Assembly (NCBI RefSeq): GCF_023734135.1
Contig: NZ_AP025730.1
Location: forward strand, 4,588,001-4,652,000
Origin: Sphaerotilus microaerophilus
GTDB taxonomy: Bacteria; Pseudomonadota; Gammaproteobacteria; Burkholderiales; Burkholderiaceae_C
Direction: 5' to 3'
Length of the DNA: 64,000 nucleotides
The notes beneath the pieces were generated by a model. That model worked only from the letters and a program-made list of their open reading frames with translations. It was not told where the DNA came from and did not search any database. The translations under genes and the position numbers were made by a program. Position 1 is the first letter of the stretch, and the number at the start of each line of letters is the position of its first letter. This document shows, in pieces, positions 1,777-10,899 of this stretch.

Positions 1777-3648
1777 TCACCTCTTCTGCGGCGGCAAATC
1801 CGTGCACGAGCCATGCGCCACTTCCGCGGCCATGCCGATGCTCTCGCCCAGCGTGGGGTGCGGGTGGATGGTCTTGCCGATGTCCACGGCGTCGGCGCCC
1901 ATCTCGATGGCCAGCGCAATCTCGCCGATCATGTCGCCGGCATGGGTGCCGACGATGCCGCCACCCAGGATGCGGCCGTGGCCGTGGGCCTCGGGGGAAT
2001 CGTCGAAGAGCAGCTTGGTGAAGCCTTCGTCGCGGCCGTTGGCGATGGCGCGGCCCGAGGCCGTCCAGGGGAACAGGCCCTTCTTGACCTTGATGCCCTG
2101 CGCCTTGGCTTGGTCCTCGGTCAGGCCGACCCAGGCCACTTCCGGATCGGTGTAGGCCACGCTCGGGATCACACGGGCGTCGAACTGGGCCTTGGCCAGG
2201 GCGGCGTCACCCTTGATCTCGCCGGCGATGACTTCCGCCGCCACGTGCGCCTCGTGCACCGCCTTGTGGGCGAGCATGGGCTGGCCGACCAGGTCACCGA
2301 TGGCGAAGATGTTCGGCACGTTGGTGCGCATCTGCACGTCCACCGGGATGAAGCCGCGGTCGGTCACGGCCACGCCCGCCTTGTCGGCAGCGATCTTCTT
2401 GCCGTTGGGCGTGCGGCCCACGGCCTGCAGCACCAGGTCGTACACGCCTTCGCTCTTCGTGCCATCCAGGCCTTCGAACTGCACCTTGATGCCGTCCGGC
2501 GTGGCCTCGGCGCCCACGGTCTTGGTCTTCAACAGGATGTTGTCGAAGCGGTGGGCGTTCATCTTCTGCCAGACCTTGACGAGGTCGCGGTCGGCGCCCT
2601 GCATCAGGCCGTCGAGCATTTCGACCACGTCCAGGCGTGCGCCCAGTGTCGAGTACACCGTGCCCATTTCCAGGCCGATGATGCCGCCGCCGACGATGAG
2701 CATCTTCTTCGGCACCGACTTGAGCGCCAGGGCGCCGGTCGATTCGACGATGCGTTCGTCATCGGGGAAGAACGGCAGGCGCACCGCCTGGGAGCCGGCG
2801 GCGATGATGGCGTTCCTGAACTTGACGACCTTGGTCGTGCCGGTCTTGTCCTGGCCCGTGCCGGTGGTCTCTTCGACCTGGACGTGGTACGGGTCGAGGA
2901 AGGCGCCGTAGCCGCGCACGGTGGTGACCTTGCGCATCTTGGCCATCGCCGCCAGGCCGCCGGTCAGCTTGCCGATGACCTTTTCCTTGTGGCCGCGCAG
3001 CTTGTCGATGTCCACCTGCGGGGCACCGAAGCTCACGCCCAGGTCACCGAGGTGGCTGACCTCGTCCATCACTGCTGCGACGTGCAGCAGCGCCTTGGAC
3101 GGGATGCAGCCCACGTTCAGGCACACGCCGCCCAGCGTCGCGTAGCGCTCGACGATGACGACCTTCAGGCCCAGGTCGGCGGCGCGGAAGGCCGCCGAGT
3201 AGCCGCCGGGGCCGGCGCCGAGCACGAGCACGTCGCACTCGACATCGGCCGGGCCGCTGTAGGTGGATGCGGGAGCGGTTTCACTCCCTCCCCTGGCAGG
3301 GGAGGGTTGGGGTGGAGTCGAGCCTGCAAGAGCCACTGGCGCCTCATTGCTCGACTCCCTCCCCGACCCTCCCCCTGCCAGGGGGAGGGAGGAAGAGGCT
3401 GCCGCAGCTCCGGCCGCTTCCAGCGTCAGGATCACGCTGCCCTGGTTGACCTTGTCGCCCAGCGCAACCCGCAGTTCCTTGACCACGCCGGCGGCCGAGG
3501 ACGGGATCTCCATCGAGGCCTTGTCGGACTCGACGGTGATCAGGCTCTGCTCGGCCTTCACCGTGTCGCCCGGCTTGACCAGGATCTCGATGACGCCGAC
3601 GTCCTTGAAGTCGCCGATGTCCGGCACTTGCACTTCGATCAATGCCAT
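1777..3648 (-). CDS. lpd: Dihydrolipoyl dehydrogenase (E3) with N-terminal lipoyl domain
   Basis: The E3 subunit reoxidises dihydrolipoamide on E2 with FAD and NAD+. At 623 residues it is longer than classical E3 (~475) because residues 1-80 form a lipoyl domain with lipoyl-lysine Lys43 in [10 protein letters not shown]. The core shows FAD motif GAGPGG (144-149), redox disulfide Cys176/Cys181 in CLNVGC, NAD motif GGGIIG (320-325) and the catalytic HPHPTLGE (His597, Glu602). Residues ~86-126 ([10 protein letters not shown] to ARGGSE) are encoded by a 121-bp palindromic repeat, also present in aceF. It starts 13 bp after aceF and is the last gene of the operon. E3 with a lipoyl domain is common in Burkholderiales and Neisseria. 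Confidence 0.96.
3276..3396. repeat. 121-bp double-hairpin repeat inserted in frame in lpd (copy 1)
   Basis: The element consists of two small palindromes, CCCTCCCCTG-G-CAGGGGAGGG and CCCTCCCCCTG-C-CAGGGGGAGGG. These are joined by arms GGAGTCGAG and CTCGACTCC, so the whole unit is one large imperfect inverted repeat around a variable centre. Copy 2 at 4996-5116 has the same length and nearly the same sequence outside the central ~20 bp. Both copies are read in the same frame, giving [20 protein letters not shown] then [12 protein letters not shown] in the proteins. Confidence 0.85.
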
Positions 3649-3661
3649 GTCGTGCTCCCGG

Positions 3662-5380
3662 TCACAGCACGATGCGGCGGAAGTCCGCCAGCAGGGATGC
3701 GAAGTAGACGTTGAAGCGGGCTGCGGCCGCGCCGTCGATGACGCGGTGGTCCCAGCTCAGCGACAGCGGCAGGATCAGGCGCGGCACGAACTGCTTGCCG
3801 TCCCAGCGCGGTTCCATGCTGCTCTTGCACACGCCCATGATCGCGACTTCCGGCGCGTTGATGATGGGGGTGAAGTAGCGCCCGCCGATGCCGCCCAGCG
3901 AGCTGATGCTGAAGCAGCCGCCGCTCATGTCGGCGGGCCCCAACTTGCCGTCGCGCGCCTTCTTGGCCAGCTCGCCCATTTCCTGGCTGATCTGGAAGAT
4001 GCCCTTCTTGTCGGCGTCCTTGATCACCGGCACCACGAGGCCGTTCGGCGTGTCCGCCGCAAAGCCGATGTGGAAGTAGTTCTTGTAGACGAGCTGGTCG
4101 CCATCCAGGCTGGCGTTGAACTCGGGGAACTTCTTCAGCGCCGCGACGGCCGCCTTGATCATGAAGGCGAGCATCGTGACCTTGACGCCCGACTTCTCGT
4201 TCTCCTTGTTGGTCGCCACGCGGAAGGCTTCCAGGTCGGTGATGTCCGCGTCGTCGTGGTTGGTGACGTGCGGGATGACGACCCAGTTGCGGTGCAGGTT
4301 GGCGCCGGAGATCTTCTTGATGCGCGAGAGGTCCTTGCGCTCGACCGGGCCGAACTTGCTGAAGTCCACCTTCGGCCAGGGCAGCAGGCCGGGGAAGGCT
4401 TCGCCGCCGGCCGCAGCGGCAGCGGCAGGTGCGGGCGCCTTGGCCTTCTGCGCGGCGGTCTGCACCGCGCCGGCCATCACGCCCTTGACGAAGGACTCGA
4501 TGTCGGTCTGTGTGATGCGGCCCTTGGGCCCGGAGCCGCTCACCTCGGCCAGCGGCACGCCGAGTTCGCGGGCGAACTTGCGGATGCTCGGGCTGGCGTG
4601 CGGCAGGCTGGCGCTCGGGGTGCCGGGGTTGTGGGCGGGCAGTGCGGCAGCAGCTGCCACCGGTGCGGGGGCGCTGGCCGTTGCGGCGGCGGGTGCCGCG
4701 GCAGCCGGAGCGGCTGCAGTTGCAGTTGCCGCAGGTGCCGGTGCGACGGCAGCGGGTGCGCCCACACCTTCGATGACCGCGATCAGCGAGCCGATGTTGA
4801 CCTTGTCGCCCAGGGCAACCTTGATCTCCTTGACCACGCCGGCGTGGCTCGACGGGATCTCCATCGACGCCTTGTCCGATTCCACCGTGATCAGGCTCTG
4901 CTCGACCTTCACCGTGTCACCGACCTTGACCAGCAACTCGATCACCGCGACGTCCTTGAAGTCGCCGATGTCGGGGACCAGCACCTGGATCGGGCCGGTT
5001 TCACCCCCTCCCCTGGCAGGGGAGGGCTGGGGAGGAGTCGAGCCCGATGGCACTGCGGGTGCCTCATTGCTCGACTCCCTCCCCGACCCTCCCCCTGCCA
5101 GGGGGAGGGAGGAAGACGGGGCCGCAGGCGCAGCGGCCTCGCCAGCCGTCTCCAGCAGCAGCACCAGCGAGCCCTCGCCGACCTTGTCGCCCAGGCCGAC
5201 CTTCAGCTCCTTGACCACGCCGGCGTGCGAGCTGGGGATCTCCATCGAGGCCTTGTCGCTCTCGACGGTGATCAGGCTCTGCTCGGCCTTGATGCTGTCG
5301 CCGGGCTTGACCAGCACCTCGATGATGGCCACTTCCTTGAAGTCCCCGATGTCGGGGACCTTCACTTCAACCAATGCCAT
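3662..5380 (-). CDS. aceF: Pyruvate dehydrogenase E2, dihydrolipoyl acetyltransferase, two lipoyl domains
   Basis: E2 forms the core of the pyruvate dehydrogenase complex and transfers acetyl from lipoyl arms to CoA. Its 572 residues show lipoyl domain 1 (1-78, Lys43), a repeat-derived linker (~88-128), lipoyl domain 2 (~130-205, Lys170), an Ala/Pro hinge (~207-250), a peripheral subunit-binding domain (~263-298), a second Ala/Pro hinge and the catalytic domain ending in DHRVIDG (His545, Asp549). The linker between the lipoyl domains is not the usual Ala/Pro type but the product of the 121-bp repeat. The gene lies 21 bp after aceE and 13 bp before lpd, so the three form one operon. Confidence 0.97.
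4996..5116. repeat. 121-bp double-hairpin repeat inserted in frame in aceF (copy 2)
   Basis: Same structure and length as the copy in lpd: paired mini-palindromes around CCTGGCAGG and CCTGCCAGG, flanked by GGAGTCGAG/CTCGACTCC arms. The central ~20 bp differ, giving APAVPSGS instead of APVALAGS. Both copies follow a lipoyl domain directly. I saw no third copy in this window. Confidence 0.85.
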
Positions 5381-5401
5381 GGTGTTTGTCTCCTGCGTCG
5401 C

Positions 5402-8110
5402 TCAGGCGTACAGCGGGTTGATCTTGTCGGCCTTGATGCCGTACTTCGTGATCGCCTCGGCCACCTTGGCGGCCGGGACCTTGCCCTCGTCGGCCAGGGC
5501 CTTGAGTGCGGCCACGACGATGTAGTGGCGGTTGATCTCGAAGTGCTCACGCAGCTTGCCGCGGAAGTCGCTGCGCCCGAAGCCGTCGGTGCCCAACACC
5601 TTGAAGGCGCGGCCGGCCGGGATGAAGGGGCGGATCTGCTCCGCGTAGTTCTTCATGTAGTCGGTCGAGGCGATCACCGGGCCAGCGTGCGGTGCCAGCT
5701 GCTCGGCCACGAAGGAGACCTTCTGCGCGTCGGTCGGGTGCAGCAGGTTCCAGCGCTCGGCGGCCTGGCCGTCACGTGCCAGCTCGTTGAAGCTCGGGCA
5801 GCTCCAGACGTTTGCGGACACGCCCCAGTCGGCAGCCAGCAGGGTGCGCGCGGCCATCGACTCGCGCAGGATGGTGCCCGAGCCCAGCAGGTTGACCTGC
5901 AGGGGGGTGCCCGCCGGTGCTTCTTCCAGCAGGTACATGCCCTTGAGGATCTGCTCCTCGGTGCCGGCGCGCAGGCCGGGCATGGCGTAGTTCTCGTTGA
6001 GCAGCGTCAGGTAGTAGAAGACGTTTTCCTGCTTCTCGACCATGCGCTTGAGGCCGTGCTGCATGATCACCGCCACCTCGTGCGCGAAGCTGGGGTCGTA
6101 GCTCACGCAGTTGGGGATGGTGCCGGCCAGGATGTGGCTGTGGCCGTCCTCGTGCTGCAGGCCTTCGCCGTTCAGCGTGGTGCGCCCGGAGGTGCCACCC
6201 AACAGGAAGCCGCGCGCCTGCATGTCGCCGGCCGCCCAGGCGAGGTCGCCGATGCGCTGGAAGCCGAACATCGAGTAGTACACGTAGAACGGCACCATGA
6301 TGCGGTTGCTCGTGCTGTAGCTCGTGGCCGCGGCGATCCAGCTGGCCATGCCGCCGGCCTCGTTGATGCCTTCCTGCAGGATCTGGCCGTTCTCGGCCTC
6401 GCGGTAGTACATCACCTGGTCCTTGTCGACCGGGGTGTACTTCTGCCCTTCGGGGTTGTAGATGCCGACCTGGCGGAACAGGCCTTCCATGCCGAAGGTG
6501 CGCGCCTCGTCCACCAGGATGGGCACCACGCGCGGGCCCAGCGCCTGGTCGCGCAGCAGCTGCGTCAGGAAGCGCACATAGGCCTGGGTGGTGGAGATCT
6601 CGCGGCCCTCGACGGTGGGCTCCAGGATGGCCTTGAAGGTCTCCAGCGAGGGCACGGTGAAGCTCTCTTCGGCCTTCACGCGGCGCTTGGGCAGGTAGCC
6701 GCCCATGGCCTGGCGGCGCTCGTGCAGGTAGCGCATCTCCGGCGTGTCGTCGGCCGGCTTGTAGAAGGGGATCTTCGGCAGCTCGCTGTCGGGGATGGGA
6801 ATGTTGAAGCGGTCGCGGAAGTACTTGATGTCGTCGTCGGTCAGCTTCTTGGTCTGGTGGACGGTGTTCTTGCCCTCGCCCGCCTTGCCCATGCCGAAGC
6901 CCTTGACGGTCTTGACCAGCAGCACGCTGGGCTGGCCGACGTGGTTGACCGCGCGGTGGAAGGCCGCGTAGACCTTCTGCGGGTCGTGGCCGCCGCGGCG
7001 CAGGTTCCAGATGTCGTCGTCGCTCATCTTGGCAACCATCTCCAGGGTGCGCGGGTCACGGCCGAAGAAGTGCTTGCGCACGTAGGCGCCATCGTTGGCC
7101 TTGAAGGACTGGTAGTCGCCGTCCAGCGTCTCCATCATGACCTTGCGCAGGGCGCCGTCCTTGTCGCGCGCCAGCAGCGGATCCCAGTTGCTGCCCCACA
7201 GCAGCTTGATGACGTTCCAGCCCGAGCCGCGGAACTCGCCTTCGAGCTCCTGGATGATCTTGCCGTTGCCGCGCACCGGGCCGTCCAGGCGCTGCAGGTT
7301 GCAGTTGATGACGAAGATCAGGTTGTCCAGCTTCTCGCGCGCGGCCAGGCCGATGGCACCCAGCGACTCCACCTCGTCCATCTCACCGTCGCCGCAGAAC
7401 ACCCAGACCTTGCGGTTGGACGTGTCGGCAATGCCGCGGGCATGCAGGTACTTCAGGAAGCGCGCCTGGTAGATCGCCATCAGCGGGCCCAGGCCCATGC
7501 TGACGGTGGGGAACTGCCAGAACTCGGGCATCAGCTTGGGGTGCGGGTAGCTCGACAGGCCCTTGCCGTCGACTTCCTGTCGGAAATGCAGCAGCTGTTC
7601 CTCGGTCAGACGGCCCTCCAGGAAGGCACGCGCATACACCCCCGGCGCCACGTGGCCCTGGATGTAGATGCAGTCGCCGCCGTGCCCGGCATCCTCGGCG
7701 TGCCAGAAGTGGTTGAAGCCGGCTCCGAACAGGTGCGCCAGCGAGGCGAAGGAACCGATGTGGCCGCCCAGGTCACCCCCATCCTCGGGGTTGTGGCGGT
7801 TGGCCTTGACCACCATCGCCATGGCGTTCCAGCGCATGTAGGCGCGCAGGCGCTCTTCGATCTCGATGTTGCCGGGGCAGCGCTCTTCCTGGTCGGTCGG
7901 GATCGTGTTGACGTAGGCGGTGTTGGCCGAGAAGGGCAGGTCGATGCCGCTCTGGCGCGCGTGCTCCAGCACCTGCTCCAGCAGGTAGTGCGCGCGTTCG
8001 CCACCTTCAGTGCCGATGACCGCACTGAGGGCATCCAGCCACTCGCGGGTTTCCTGGCTGTCGCTGTCCTGGGGGGCCGAGCTCGGCTGGCTCGACGGCA
8101 TTGCAGACAT
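5402..8110 (-). CDS. aceE: Pyruvate dehydrogenase E1 component (homodimeric type)
   Basis: A 902-residue thiamine-diphosphate enzyme that decarboxylates pyruvate and reductively acetylates the lipoyl arm of E2. The length matches the single-chain AceE family (~890). The ThDP/Mg2+ motif GDGEMDE...N is near residue 236, and the transketolase-like pyrimidine-binding and C-terminal domains are complete. It is the first gene of aceE-aceF-lpd. Upstream lies an AT-rich region with an ATTTCA/TGAAAT dyad, the probable control region, shared with the divergent sensor kinase gene. Confidence 0.98.
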   Translation of the reverse strand: MSAMPSSQPSSAPQDSDSQETREWLDALSAVIGTEGGERAHYLLEQVLEHARQSGIDLPFSANTAYVNTIPTDQEERCPGNIEIEERLRAYMRWNAMAMVVKANRHNPEDGGDLGGHIGSFASLAHLFGAGFNHFWHAEDAGHGGDCIYIQGHVAPGVYARAFLEGRLTEEQLLHFRQEVDGKGLSSYPHPKLMPEFWQFPTVSMGLGPLMAIYQARFLKYLHARGIADTSNRKVWVFCGDGEMDEVESLGAIGLAAREKLDNLIFVINCNLQRLDGPVRGNGKIIQELEGEFRGSGWNVIKLLWGSNWDPLLARDKDGALRKVMMETLDGDYQSFKANDGAYVRKHFFGRDPRTLEMVAKMSDDDIWNLRRGGHDPQKVYAAFHRAVNHVGQPSVLLVKTVKGFGMGKAGEGKNTVHQTKKLTDDDIKYFRDRFNIPIPDSELPKIPFYKPADDTPEMRYLHERRQAMGGYLPKRRVKAEESFTVPSLETFKAILEPTVEGREISTTQAYVRFLTQLLRDQALGPRVVPILVDEARTFGMEGLFRQVGIYNPEGQKYTPVDKDQVMYYREAENGQILQEGINEAGGMASWIAAATSYSTSNRIMVPFYVYYSMFGFQRIGDLAWAAGDMQARGFLLGGTSGRTTLNGEGLQHEDGHSHILAGTIPNCVSYDPSFAHEVAVIMQHGLKRMVEKQENVFYYLTLLNENYAMPGLRAGTEEQILKGMYLLEEAPAGTPLQVNLLGSGTILRESMAARTLLAADWGVSANVWSCPSFNELARDGQAAERWNLLHPTDAQKVSFVAEQLAPHAGPVIASTDYMKNYAEQIRPFIPAGRAFKVLGTDGFGRSDFRGKLREHFEINRHYIVVAALKALADEGKVPAAKVAEAITKYGIKADKINPLYA

Positions 8111-8208
8111 GGTGTCTCCTCTTGCTGCACAAAGATGCGGTTGGGCGCCTCGGGTGGTGGGCGCAGAAAGCGCCCCGGTGCTTCAGGCGCGGGGCGAAGT
8201 CTCGCACA

Positions 8209-8280
8209 TCATTCGTCAAATTTCAAATGGTGCTTTTCAATTTCATTATGTGAAATAAATGCACGATCGTTCGATGAAAC
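8209..8280. promoter_or_regulatory. AT-rich control region between aceE and the sensor kinase gene
   Basis: This is a ~70-bp AT-rich island in an otherwise GC-rich sequence. It contains the perfect dyad ATTTCA-TTATG-TGAAAT (8240-8256), plus further TTTCA-type half-sites at 8221-8225, 8236-8239 and, inverted, 8274-8278. CATAAT read on the minus strand (8250-8245) could serve as an aceE -10 and would be covered by the dyad. TTTCA-N5-TGAAA dyads are typical operator shapes for bacterial one-component regulators. Which regulator binds cannot be told. Confidence 0.5.
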
Positions 8281-8358
8281 CTCCGATCCGGACCTGCTGC
8301 ACTGCAGCAAGCACGCTCGCCGCCCCGCTGAGGGCGGGCCATGCCGGCAGGGCCCGCG

Positions 8359-8364
8359 GATAAT
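8359..8364 (+). promoter_or_regulatory. -10-like hexamer GATAAT close to the sensor kinase start
   Basis: GATAAT ends 6 nt before the ATG at 8371, so transcription from it would start about at the start codon. No good -35 was found. See the finding on possible leaderless transcripts. Confidence 0.35.
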
Positions 8365-8370
8365 CCGGGC

Positions 8371-10899
8371 ATGCAGCTGAGTCCCCCGGAGCACCTCGTG
8401 AGCCAGGCCCACCGTTCACGCCCGAAGCGCTGGTTCTGGTCCTGGTGGCGACGCCAGTCACCGGCCCGACAGGACCGGGTCGCCACGCTCGCTCCGCTGG
8501 CGTCGGTGCTGCTGTTCCTGGCCGCCATCGTTGCGGCTTTCTGGTACCTGCGCAACGAGGAGGTCGAGCGCGAGGTCGAGTCCGTCAAGCGCGATGCCGA
8601 GCTGGTGCAGCAGCAGATCCGCCTGCGCCTGATCGAGAACCAGGAGCAGCTGATCCGGCTGGCACGCGAGGTGGGCACCCACGCCATCGACCGTGCGCAG
8701 TTCCTCGCCCAGGCCGAAGGCATGGTGCGCAATCGGCCGGAGATGATCGCCATCTCCTGGCTCAATCCCCGCCAGCAGGTGCTGGCACGACACGTCACGG
8801 CCAACCTCGTGGAGGCGATGCCACGCGACCTGGCCGCCTCGGAGGCCAGCAGCGAGGCCCCGCGCCCGAAAGAGACGACCGACGCCTTCAAGGACGCACG
8901 CGACCTGCGCCAGCCAATCTATTCGCGCCCCTTCCGGCAGAACCCGCACCTGGTGGTCTTCCAGGTGCATGTGCCGCTGATCGAGCAGGGCGCCTTCGCA
9001 GGCACGCTGGTGGCCGAGTACTCGCTGGAATCGATGCTGCGCTATTTCGTGCCCGCCGAGGTGTCGCGCCGGCACGTCGTGAGCCTGGTCGATGAGGACG
9101 AGGAGATGCTCGCCAGCACGGTAACGCCCCAGCGCGGGCGCGCCGCCCCCACGCTGGTCTACAGCGTGCCCTTCTCGCCGGTGGACCACGGCGTGATGCT
9201 GCGTGGCGAGGGCTACCGCACCTCCTTCGGACTGATCGGCAACACGCTGTTCTGGATGGTGCTGGCCCTGTCGGTGCTGACGGTGTGGATGCTGCTGGGC
9301 ACCTGGCGGCACATGCGGCGGCGCTCGCAGATCCAGGGCGCCTTGGTGCAGGAGACCAACTTCCGCCGGGCCATGGAGAACTCCATGCTCACCGGCATGC
9401 GCGCCATGGACATGGAGGGCCGCATCAGCTACGTGAATCCGGCCTTCAGCGCGATGACGGGCTTCACCGAGGCCGAGCTGATCGGGCGGCTGCCGCCCTA
9501 CCCGCACTGGGCCCCGGAACTGCTCGATGAAAGCGCCCGGCTGCTGCGCCAGGAATTGGCCGGCCTGAGCCCGGCCGGCGGCTTCGAGGTGCGGGTGATG
9601 CGCAAGGACGGCACGCGCTTCGACGCGCGCATGTACGTCTCGCCGCTGATCGACGCGCGCGGCCACCAGACTGGCTGGATGACCTCGATGACCAACATCA
9701 CCGAGGCCAAGCGCGTGCGCGACCAGCTCACCGCCTCGCACGAGCGCTTCACCACCGTGCTGGAGGGGCTGGACGCGGCGGTGTCGGTGCTGTCGGTGCA
9801 GAACGGCGAACTGCTGTTCGCCAACCGCTCCTACAAGCTCTGGTTCGGCAGCGATGCGCGCTGGCATGCGCAGCTGGCGGGCGAACCCTCGGCAACCTCC
9901 CGCGGCGATCGCGACGACGCGGTGGACAACCTCTCCGGCCTGCCCACCGCCGAACTGACGGAGCTGGGCGCCGATGCGCGCGAGGTCTTCGTCGACACGC
10001 TGCAGAAGTGGTTCGACGTGCGTGCGCGCTACCTGCAGTGGACCGACGGCCGGCTCGCGCAGATGCTGATCGCCACCGACATCACCGCCCGCCGCCGCAT
10101 GGAGGAGCAGGCCTCGCAGCAGGCCGAGCGCGCCCAGGTGACCAGCCGGCTGGTGACGATGGGCGAGATGGCCTCGTCGGTCGCGCACGAGCTGAACCAG
10201 CCGCTGGCGGCCATCGCCAACTACTGCAACGGCATGATCTCGCGCGCCAAGGCGGGCACGCTGCAGCAGGAGGACCTGCTGATGGCGCTGGAGAAGACCT
10301 CGCGCCAGGCGCACCGCGCCGGCCAGATCATCCACCGCATCCGCAACTTCGTGAAGCGCAGCGAGCCGCAGCGCACGCCGTCGCGTGCGGCCGACCTCGT
10401 CGAGGACACCCTGGAGCTGGCCGGCATCGTGCTGCGCCGGCACAACGTGGCGATCCACAGCTATGTGGCCCAGCGGCTGCCGCAGCTGATGGTCGACCCG
10501 ATCCTGATCGAGCAGGTGCTGCTCAACCTGATCAAGAACGCCGCCGAGGCGATCGACCAGGCGCAGCGGCCACCCCAGCGGCGCACCATCGAGCTGCGCG
10601 TGGTGCCGCGCCACACCCCCGAGATCGGCGGCGTGATCGAGTTCACCGTCACCGACACCGGCCCCGGTCTGAAAGAGGAAGTCATCAGCCGGCTCTACGA
10701 GGCCTTCTTCTCCACCAAGACCGATGGCCTGGGGATCGGGCTGTCGTTGTGCCGCTCCATCGTCGAGTCGCACCACGGCCGGATCCGGGCGGAGAACCTC
10801 TACAATGGAACACACATCAGCGGCTGCCGTTTCACCGTCTGGTTGCCCGTCGGCAACCTGGGTGCCTCGGAGCCCTCCCAGTTCGCAGAGCATCTATGA
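8371..10899 (+). CDS. Membrane sensor histidine kinase with two PAS domains
   Basis: A DctS/FixL-like kinase of about 842 residues. Order: TM1 (~38-60), an extracytoplasmic sensor region of ~230 residues, TM2 (~290-312), PAS (~330-440), PAS (~455-575), HisKA with phospho-acceptor His606 in VAHELNQPL, and HATPase_c with N box NLIKNAAEAID, DTGPG and GLGIGLSLC. The HELNQPLAAI box is that of FixL/DctB-type kinases. Its stop overlaps the regulator's ATG (ATGA), so the two are co-translated partners. An alternative GTG start at 8398 has GGAG six bases before it, while ATG 8371 has a GATAAT just upstream. The ligand is unknown. Position opposite aceE suggests, but does not show, a link to pyruvate or organic acids. 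Confidence 0.88.
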   Translation: MQLSPPEHLVSQAHRSRPKRWFWSWWRRQSPARQDRVATLAPLASVLLFLAAIVAAFWYLRNEEVEREVESVKRDAELVQQQIRLRLIENQEQLIRLAREVGTHAIDRAQFLAQAEGMVRNRPEMIAISWLNPRQQVLARHVTANLVEAMPRDLAASEASSEAPRPKETTDAFKDARDLRQPIYSRPFRQNPHLVVFQVHVPLIEQGAFAGTLVAEYSLESMLRYFVPAEVSRRHVVSLVDEDEEMLASTVTPQRGRAAPTLVYSVPFSPVDHGVMLRGEGYRTSFGLIGNTLFWMVLALSVLTVWMLLGTWRHMRRRSQIQGALVQETNFRRAMENSMLTGMRAMDMEGRISYVNPAFSAMTGFTEAELIGRLPPYPHWAPELLDESARLLRQELAGLSPAGGFEVRVMRKDGTRFDARMYVSPLIDARGHQTGWMTSMTNITEAKRVRDQLTASHERFTTVLEGLDAAVSVLSVQNGELLFANRSYKLWFGSDARWHAQLAGEPSATSRGDRDDAVDNLSGLPTAELTELGADAREVFVDTLQKWFDVRARYLQWTDGRLAQMLIATDITARRRMEEQASQQAERAQVTSRLVTMGEMASSVAHELNQPLAAIANYCNGMISRAKAGTLQQEDLLMALEKTSRQAHRAGQIIHRIRNFVKRSEPQRTPSRAADLVEDTLELAGIVLRRHNVAIHSYVAQRLPQLMVDPILIEQVLLNLIKNAAEAIDQAQRPPQRRTIELRVVPRHTPEIGGVIEFTVTDTGPGLKEEVISRLYEAFFSTKTDGLGIGLSLCRSIVESHHGRIRAENLYNGTHISGCRFTVWLPVGNLGASEPSQFAEHL

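Follow-up and report, generated by a model that had tools for sequence, protein, structure and literature searches.

The window analysed here is a 64,000-nucleotide stretch of the Sphaerotilus microaerophilus genome (contig NZ_AP025730.1, positions 4,588,001 to 4,652,000), which amounts to 6.06 Mb in two contigs and is labelled G000 in comparisons. Two neighbouring genes on the minus strand, identified from open reading frames and domain searches, encode subunits of pyruvate dehydrogenase (PDH): lpd (1777..3648) specifies a dihydrolipoyl dehydrogenase (E3) of 623 aa with an N-terminal lipoyl domain, and aceF (3662..5380) specifies a dihydrolipoyllysine-residue acetyltransferase (E2) of 572 aa with two lipoyl domains. 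The lipoyl domain of Lpd (Pfam PF00364, residues 5-76) is encoded at 3421..3636 and the first of AceF (PF00364, residues 5-74) at 5159..5368, both on the minus strand, and after each comes a copy of a 121-bp element, delimited by sequence comparison and a class II motif scan. Also on the minus strand, the copy in lpd (3276..3396) is read as the 40 residues 85-124 of Lpd, and that in aceF (4996..5116) as the 40 residues 89-128 of AceF, ranges that were calculated from the coordinates. An earlier reading of this DNA, made from the letters alone and referred to here as the original prediction, had described a 121-bp palindromic repeat at these positions as an in-frame linker, and its coordinates, length and frame are correct. 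It had placed the element right after the lipoyl domain; the element does follow the domain, but the wording is slightly loose as the start lies 8-14 residues past the Pfam end (residue 76 in Lpd, 74 in AceF).

The lpd and aceF copies are identical at 108 of 121 positions, and the expectation that they differ mainly in the central ~20 bp was accurate, with 10 of the 13 differences inside a 16-bp central block. Sorted by codon position 1, 2 and 3, the differences number 2, 3 and 8, numbers too small to prove that the peptide is under selection. Each copy contains two inverted repeats, as anticipated from the two-hairpin structure first seen, and folds far beyond 200 shuffled sequences (z of -7.9 and -7.6). 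The core hairpin, with up to 3 mismatches allowed, occurs at only two sites in the window, both of them the elements, against a shuffling expectation of 0.00. In this frame the element encodes 40 residues rich in Ser, Gly, Pro and Ala. Its length is 40 codons plus one base and not a multiple of 3, so it cannot have entered cleanly, as 121 bp and no more, a linker that otherwise stayed unaltered.

Both copies consist of two class II intrastrand-triplex motifs in inverted arrangement, resembling BoxC/PIT elements. Each half runs from a pyrimidine arm through a short loop to a purine arm, and through another short loop to a second purine arm, the order of parts by which Holder and co-workers define a class II intrastrand triplex (PMC4666352); as a single strand the unit is predicted to fold into such a triplex. 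In the lpd copy, unit 1 lies at 3354..3389 on the minus strand (stem 10, loops 3 and 3, one mismatch) and the inverted unit 2 at 3286..3318 on the plus strand (stem 9, one mismatch); in the aceF copy, unit 1 lies at 5074..5109 on the minus strand (stem 10, one mismatch) and the inverted unit 2 at 5006..5038 on the plus strand (stem 9, one mismatch). These motifs were found with our own script, not the Holder program, under the published rule (Y-loop-R-loop-R, stems 6-15, loops 1-6, at most one mismatch; PMC4666352), with stems of at least 7 and at most one mismatch in the window scan. Every class II motif in the 64 kb sits in one of the two elements, and ten windows simulated with a first-order Markov model had 0 or 1 each. 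A third, intergenic copy described below follows the rule in the same way as the lpd and aceF copies, with stems of 10 and 9, loops of 3 and 3 and one mismatch.

In E. coli, class II intrastrand-triplex motifs are BoxC or PIT elements, and strain MG1655 has five inverted tandem pair sites (PMC4666352). The strict E. coli TMECO/BoxC consensus given in that paper, CCCTCNCCC N3-6 GGGNGAGGG N3 GGGNGAGGG, has no match in the window copies, which we therefore call BoxC-like and do not file as TMECO. Three linkers of relatives do match it (those of aceF in G027 and of aceF and lpd in L193), and in L193 the aceF element departs at 1 of 36 bases from motif no. 3 in Table 1 of PMC4666352.

The original prediction had proposed a search of the genome for further copies. 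Only three exist in the whole genome, namely those in lpd and aceF and one intergenic copy (C1:105236-105343), which matches the aceF copy at 86% identity and is flanked by genes for an ABC-transporter permease and a solute-binding protein. Scattered insertion would give nothing close to two of three copies in lipoyl-bearing PDH genes. The intergenic copy, together with the plain linker of most same-genus relatives, bears out the view that an extragenic-type repeat is being read in frame; the opposite outcome, no other copies and the segment in all distant homologues, did not occur. One hairpin pattern had a match in 31 of 100 genomes, this one included, with a maximum of 72 per genome. The gene for the solute-binding protein next to the intergenic copy is interrupted by an in-frame stop near its 3' part (L007 about 3136); the upstream piece matches solute-binding families and the 88-residue downstream piece has no Pfam match. 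The genome also encodes two Y1 (IS200/RAYT-type) transposase genes, at C1:5312667-5312999 and 1576117-1576356.

Close relatives mostly lack the segment. Besides G000, 11 same-genus genomes were readable at both genes (G007 was too incomplete), and the alignment of relatives that the original prediction had called for came out in its favour: 10 of the 11 have a plain Ala/Pro linker, and the eleventh, G004, has inserts of its own that are different. The nearest sister species, G012, with an E3 body 97% identical, has Ala/Pro linkers free of the element both in lpd and at the first linker position of aceF. The lpd linker measures 72 aa in G000 vs 61 in G012 (+11), and the first aceF linker 62 vs 55 (+7). 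In G004, different elements of the same class occupy three linkers (two in aceF, one in lpd), and its sister G005, whose E3 is 99% identical over 336 columns, has none; the three linkers measure 67, 50 and 75 aa in G004 and 56, 50 and 64 in G005. Since G012 and G005 are free of inserts, the arrivals in G000 and G004 look recent and separate, and the inserts mostly occupy the place of the old linker at near-constant length. A single reading frame fixed everywhere was considered and dropped, as the frame in which the first unit is read differs between G000 and G004.

Beyond the genus, lipoyl linkers were parsed from 141 genomes, 376 in all (lpd, 141 linkers from 138 genomes; aceF, 235 from 131). 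The sample comprised relatives, with the host genome included (lpd readable in 45 of 60, aceF in 43 of 60); named loci, of which 80 minus four duplicates dropped before the linker counts (N123, N129, N133 and N153) left 76, with aceF present in 70; and 20 extra genomes picked by hand, 11 with a hairpin by an earlier pattern scan and 9 without (lpd readable in 17 of 20, aceF in 18 of 20). Initial loose hairpin screens were dropped after they picked up common GC-rich hairpins and false positives for peptide motifs (e.g. G035, L151, L198 and L199), and the final linker screens used the pyrimidine-arm hairpin rule and the class II rule in place of the looser ones, with stems of at least 8 for the class II count.

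Under the class II rule, 18 of the 376 linkers carry a motif, the two here included, and they come from 12 genomes. Both genes are involved in G000, G071, L183 and L193 (aceF and lpd) and in G004 (aceF twice and lpd), lpd only in G017, G085, L180, L184 and L190, and aceF only in G027 and G094. The pyrimidine-arm hairpin is intact in 16 of the 376, again with the present two, and in G028 (aceF and lpd) and L168 a peptide trace is all that is left, the hairpin and the class II motif being gone. The extra genomes contributed three carriers of class II inserts (G071, G085 and G094), all from the hairpin-bearing picks; when the hand-picked genomes are excluded, eight genomes have an intact pyrimidine-arm hairpin against 121 with a readable lpd. 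On a FastTree phylogeny of the E3 body (138 rows), with the peptide-trace-only genomes G028 and L168 counted as carriers and G085 left out, 13 carrier genomes correspond to 13 changes, which may be gains or losses, the scatter also seen with shuffled labels (mean 12.6), and at least 11 of these changes are forced by strongly supported branches.

Other linkers in the sample hold related or comparable material. The lpd linker L294 (G085), in a genome of another family, contains a further-diverged class II element with the peptide ...NPPTPSFSKGGS..., and the lpd linkers of L159 and L164 contain pieces of another dispersed repeat, with the core CCTGAGCTTGTCGAAG, which is found at 48 and 93 sites in the respective genomes (at most one mismatch). 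Thus more than one repeat family enters lipoyl linkers. A candidate of this kind in the lpd gene of L132, GCGAGCGAAGCGAAGCAATCC, was rejected as a dispersed repeat, with only 2 sites in its genome at up to 2 mismatches. In L183 (Vandammella animalimorsus) the lpd linker has a tandem Ser-Pro-Gln-Pro run beside the element, encoded by CCCTCACCCCAA-type units, and this run looks like an expanded BoxC third-strand segment.

Within the named loci, the linker is where the class II motifs are found. The 76 named loci span 674,216 bases, of which the aceF and lpd linkers make up 37,059 (5.5%), and all 8 class II motifs lie in those linkers; the remaining 637 kb, mostly coding, have none. A looser hairpin rule gave 7 hits inside the linkers vs 5 outside (Fisher p 9e-7), and none of the 5 looks like BoxC on inspection. 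At the scale of whole genomes, 2 of the 3 pattern matches in Vandammella (L183) are in aceF and lpd, as are 5 of the 19 hairpins in G004, where 9 of the 19 fall outside identified genes and are apparently between genes.

Lipoyl linkers of 2-oxo acid dehydrogenases are functional flexible arms that have to be long, mobile and soluble, and we think it probable that recurrent capture of triplex repeats in these permissive swinging-arm linkers explains the whole pattern. On this explanation a BoxC/PIT-like inverted pair would have been captured in the Ala/Pro-rich linkers of Lpd and AceF, in a genome of the Sphaerotilus/Leptothrix group and after its split from the nearest compared species. It would have replaced most of the old linker and be translated as a disordered 40-residue stretch rich in Ser, Gly, Pro and Ala, which would take over the swinging-arm job of letting the lipoyl domain swing. 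An AlphaFold2 model of Lpd is consistent with such disorder: residues 81-124 have a predicted local distance difference test score (pLDDT) below 50, with block means of 26-31 over 81-120 and no secondary structure, and the lipoyl domain blocks score 76-93. The copies in lpd and aceF may have spread between lipoyl segments by recombination or come from one common source, captures would recur because lipoyl linkers accept almost any open, flexible sequence, and with the old tract gone the insert could not simply be lost. The identity of the element, its frame, its absence in the sister species, the near-constant linker length, the recurrence and the concentration in linkers relative to coding DNA are all read from sequence; from these we infer that the element is translated, disordered in the cell and functional as a linker, that it was copied, and that it is retained for the reason just given.

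Several points weigh against this explanation. Merely tolerated junk would give the same picture. Linker length is not fully held, as lpd linkers with an insert (8) run slightly longer than the other 100 (median 63.5 vs 57, Mann-Whitney p 0.008). The alignment behind the AlphaFold2 model of Lpd is shallow (30 sequences), and the C-terminal E3 domain is likewise low-scoring. The concentration in linkers holds against coding DNA and not against intergenic DNA, and in coding neighbours most insertions would do harm. The sucB loci, encoding an E2 that likewise has a lipoyl linker, contain no class II motif (33 loci, 108,933 bases), but as a control this is weak, since zero in 32 linkers has a probability of 0.21 at the PDH rate. 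In G004 the element occurs in frame in other genes as well, at two places in uvrA and in hrpA and galT (contigs C135, C77 and C154; L213, L214, L209 and L216), so lipoyl linkers are favoured and not exclusive. Finally, we know of no mobilising enzyme for BoxC.

The original prediction had left it open whether the copies in lpd and aceF stem from two insertions or from one that was copied. Here the evidence tilts toward copying or a common source, short of proof: the left part of the spacer (AATGAGGC) and the end word TGAAACCG are common to the lpd and aceF copies and missing from the intergenic copy, which suggests that the two are sisters, with one as the template of the other or with a shared source since lost, and sisters they probably are. 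A parallel exists in G004, where the inserts in lpd and in the second aceF linker share the whole spacer with few base changes. Among the 128 genomes read at both genes, 6 carry inserts in both, 5 and 2 in one, and 115 in none (Fisher p 2e-6), a joint carriage that is partly explained by the tendency of carriers to be element-rich and to that extent also counts against our explanation. That the two copies arrived independently at equivalent sites is the less favoured course, unlikely but with a real chance of being true: L183 and L193 carry clearly different elements in the two genes, so independent capture does occur, at three bases the lpd copy agrees with the intergenic copy and aceF does not, and the aceF spacer is in its right part closer to the intergenic copy than the lpd spacer is. 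The shared words and the G004 spacer argue the other way.

Readings that differ in the nature of the site or of the segment fare less well. If a mobile element actively targeted GC-rich Ala/Pro-coding DNA, lipoyl linkers would be true insertion hot spots and not tolerant sites, and the finding of all 8 named-locus motifs in 5.5% of the bases would follow; we regard this as improbable given the copies of the G004 element in uvrA, hrpA and galT and the 9 apparently intergenic hairpins of that genome, and neither a transposase link nor a target duplication has been established. It is more improbable still that the element owes its retention to DNA or RNA structure, a triplex or hairpin in the pdh transcript that might, for example, make ribosomes pause between domains, with the peptide as a by-product. 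The 16 intact pyrimidine-arm hairpins and the strong folding of both copies here fit such a role, yet the linkers of G028 and L168 have kept the peptide trace and lost the structure, by far most linkers are without any structure of this kind, and earlier work found PIT elements to have neither promoter or terminator activity nor an effect on polymerase in vivo (PMC4666352). An ancestral linker that only happens to look like a repeat can be set aside almost with certainty: the linker position is itself ancestral, but the sister species G012 and ten of the eleven other same-genus genomes lack the segment, the eleventh having different inserts, and an intergenic copy exists. A bolder proposal, to which we give somewhat less than an even chance, is that PDH linkers in Burkholderiales are in steady turnover, with repeats entering one lipoyl linker, displacing the Ala/Pro tract at near-constant length, spreading to the partner subunit by recombination and decaying into ordinary linker. 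If this is true, non-coding DNA structure motifs would be a standing source of new disordered protein sequence.

Among the closest known systems are the BoxC/PIT/TM motifs (PMC4666352): they too are class II, with the Y-loop-R-loop-R order, G/C-rich and dispersed, and occur in inverted tandem pairs as well, the difference being that the window copies fall off the strict E. coli consensus. The main text of that paper has none of the terms 'in-frame', 'linker', 'pyruvate dehydrogenase', 'intragenic', 'within genes' or 'in genes'. In the part available of a survey of stem-loop families, the BoxC row is labelled neither intergenic nor genic (PMC2267715), so 'extragenic' should be taken as a tendency and not as a strict rule. 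Rickettsia palindromic elements (RPE) are palindromic repeats of ~150 bp that are likewise found in frame in unrelated genes (PMC10969869). The original prediction had drawn this comparison in principle, and it is apt: as with RPE, in-frame copies (two here) coexist with an intergenic one, and the element works like an RPE, with no membership claimed. The differences are that RPE belong to other bacteria and that here one functional site class, the lipoyl linker, is struck repeatedly. GTAG/CGTC REPs are palindromic repeats in genes of several species (Di Nocera 2013, PMC3733652), and uvrA is a target both of these and of the G004 element; their authors suggest that the insertions may be neutral, being in flexible linkers or loops. 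The element here differs in having neither GTAG nor CGTC on either strand of either 121-bp copy, and the main text of PMC3733652, apart from the supplementary target gene list, contains neither 'dehydrogenase' nor 'lipoyl'. At the protein level the counterpart is the Ala/Pro swinging-arm linker of 2-oxo acid dehydrogenase E2, which occupies the same place at nearly the same length; the element linker differs in being Ser/Gly/Pro-rich and derived from a DNA repeat.

In-frame palindromic repeats are thus already known, and those of Rickettsia and some other genomes lie in many unrelated genes with unclear effect. Among the matches listed, titles and abstract openings of open-licence papers yielded no report of BoxC-type elements as protein linkers or of repeated capture at one linker class, and on this weak evidence the repeated capture of BoxC-type elements in lipoyl linkers is apparently new. 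Here a single linker class with a well understood mechanical job appears to have taken up triplex-type repeats many times, in captures that involve different elements, frames and partner genes. Whether repeats inside proteins are tolerated or take over a function becomes a testable question, because the length and flexibility of the linker and the activity of the complex are all measurable, and the case illustrates clearly how non-coding DNA could give rise to disordered protein sequence.

Some further features of the region may be mentioned. Upstream of aceF in the same gene row lies aceE (5402..8110, minus strand, open reading frame and domain search), encoding pyruvate dehydrogenase E1. A search of 2.2 kb against Rfam returned 84 matches at E ≤1, nearly all to microRNA hairpin models and all under the gathering scores, and these were taken as noise arising from the inverted repeats. 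On the plus strand an antisense open frame of 1705 residues (3263-8380) covers aceE, aceF and part of lpd, and is probably a by-product of high G+C codon usage.

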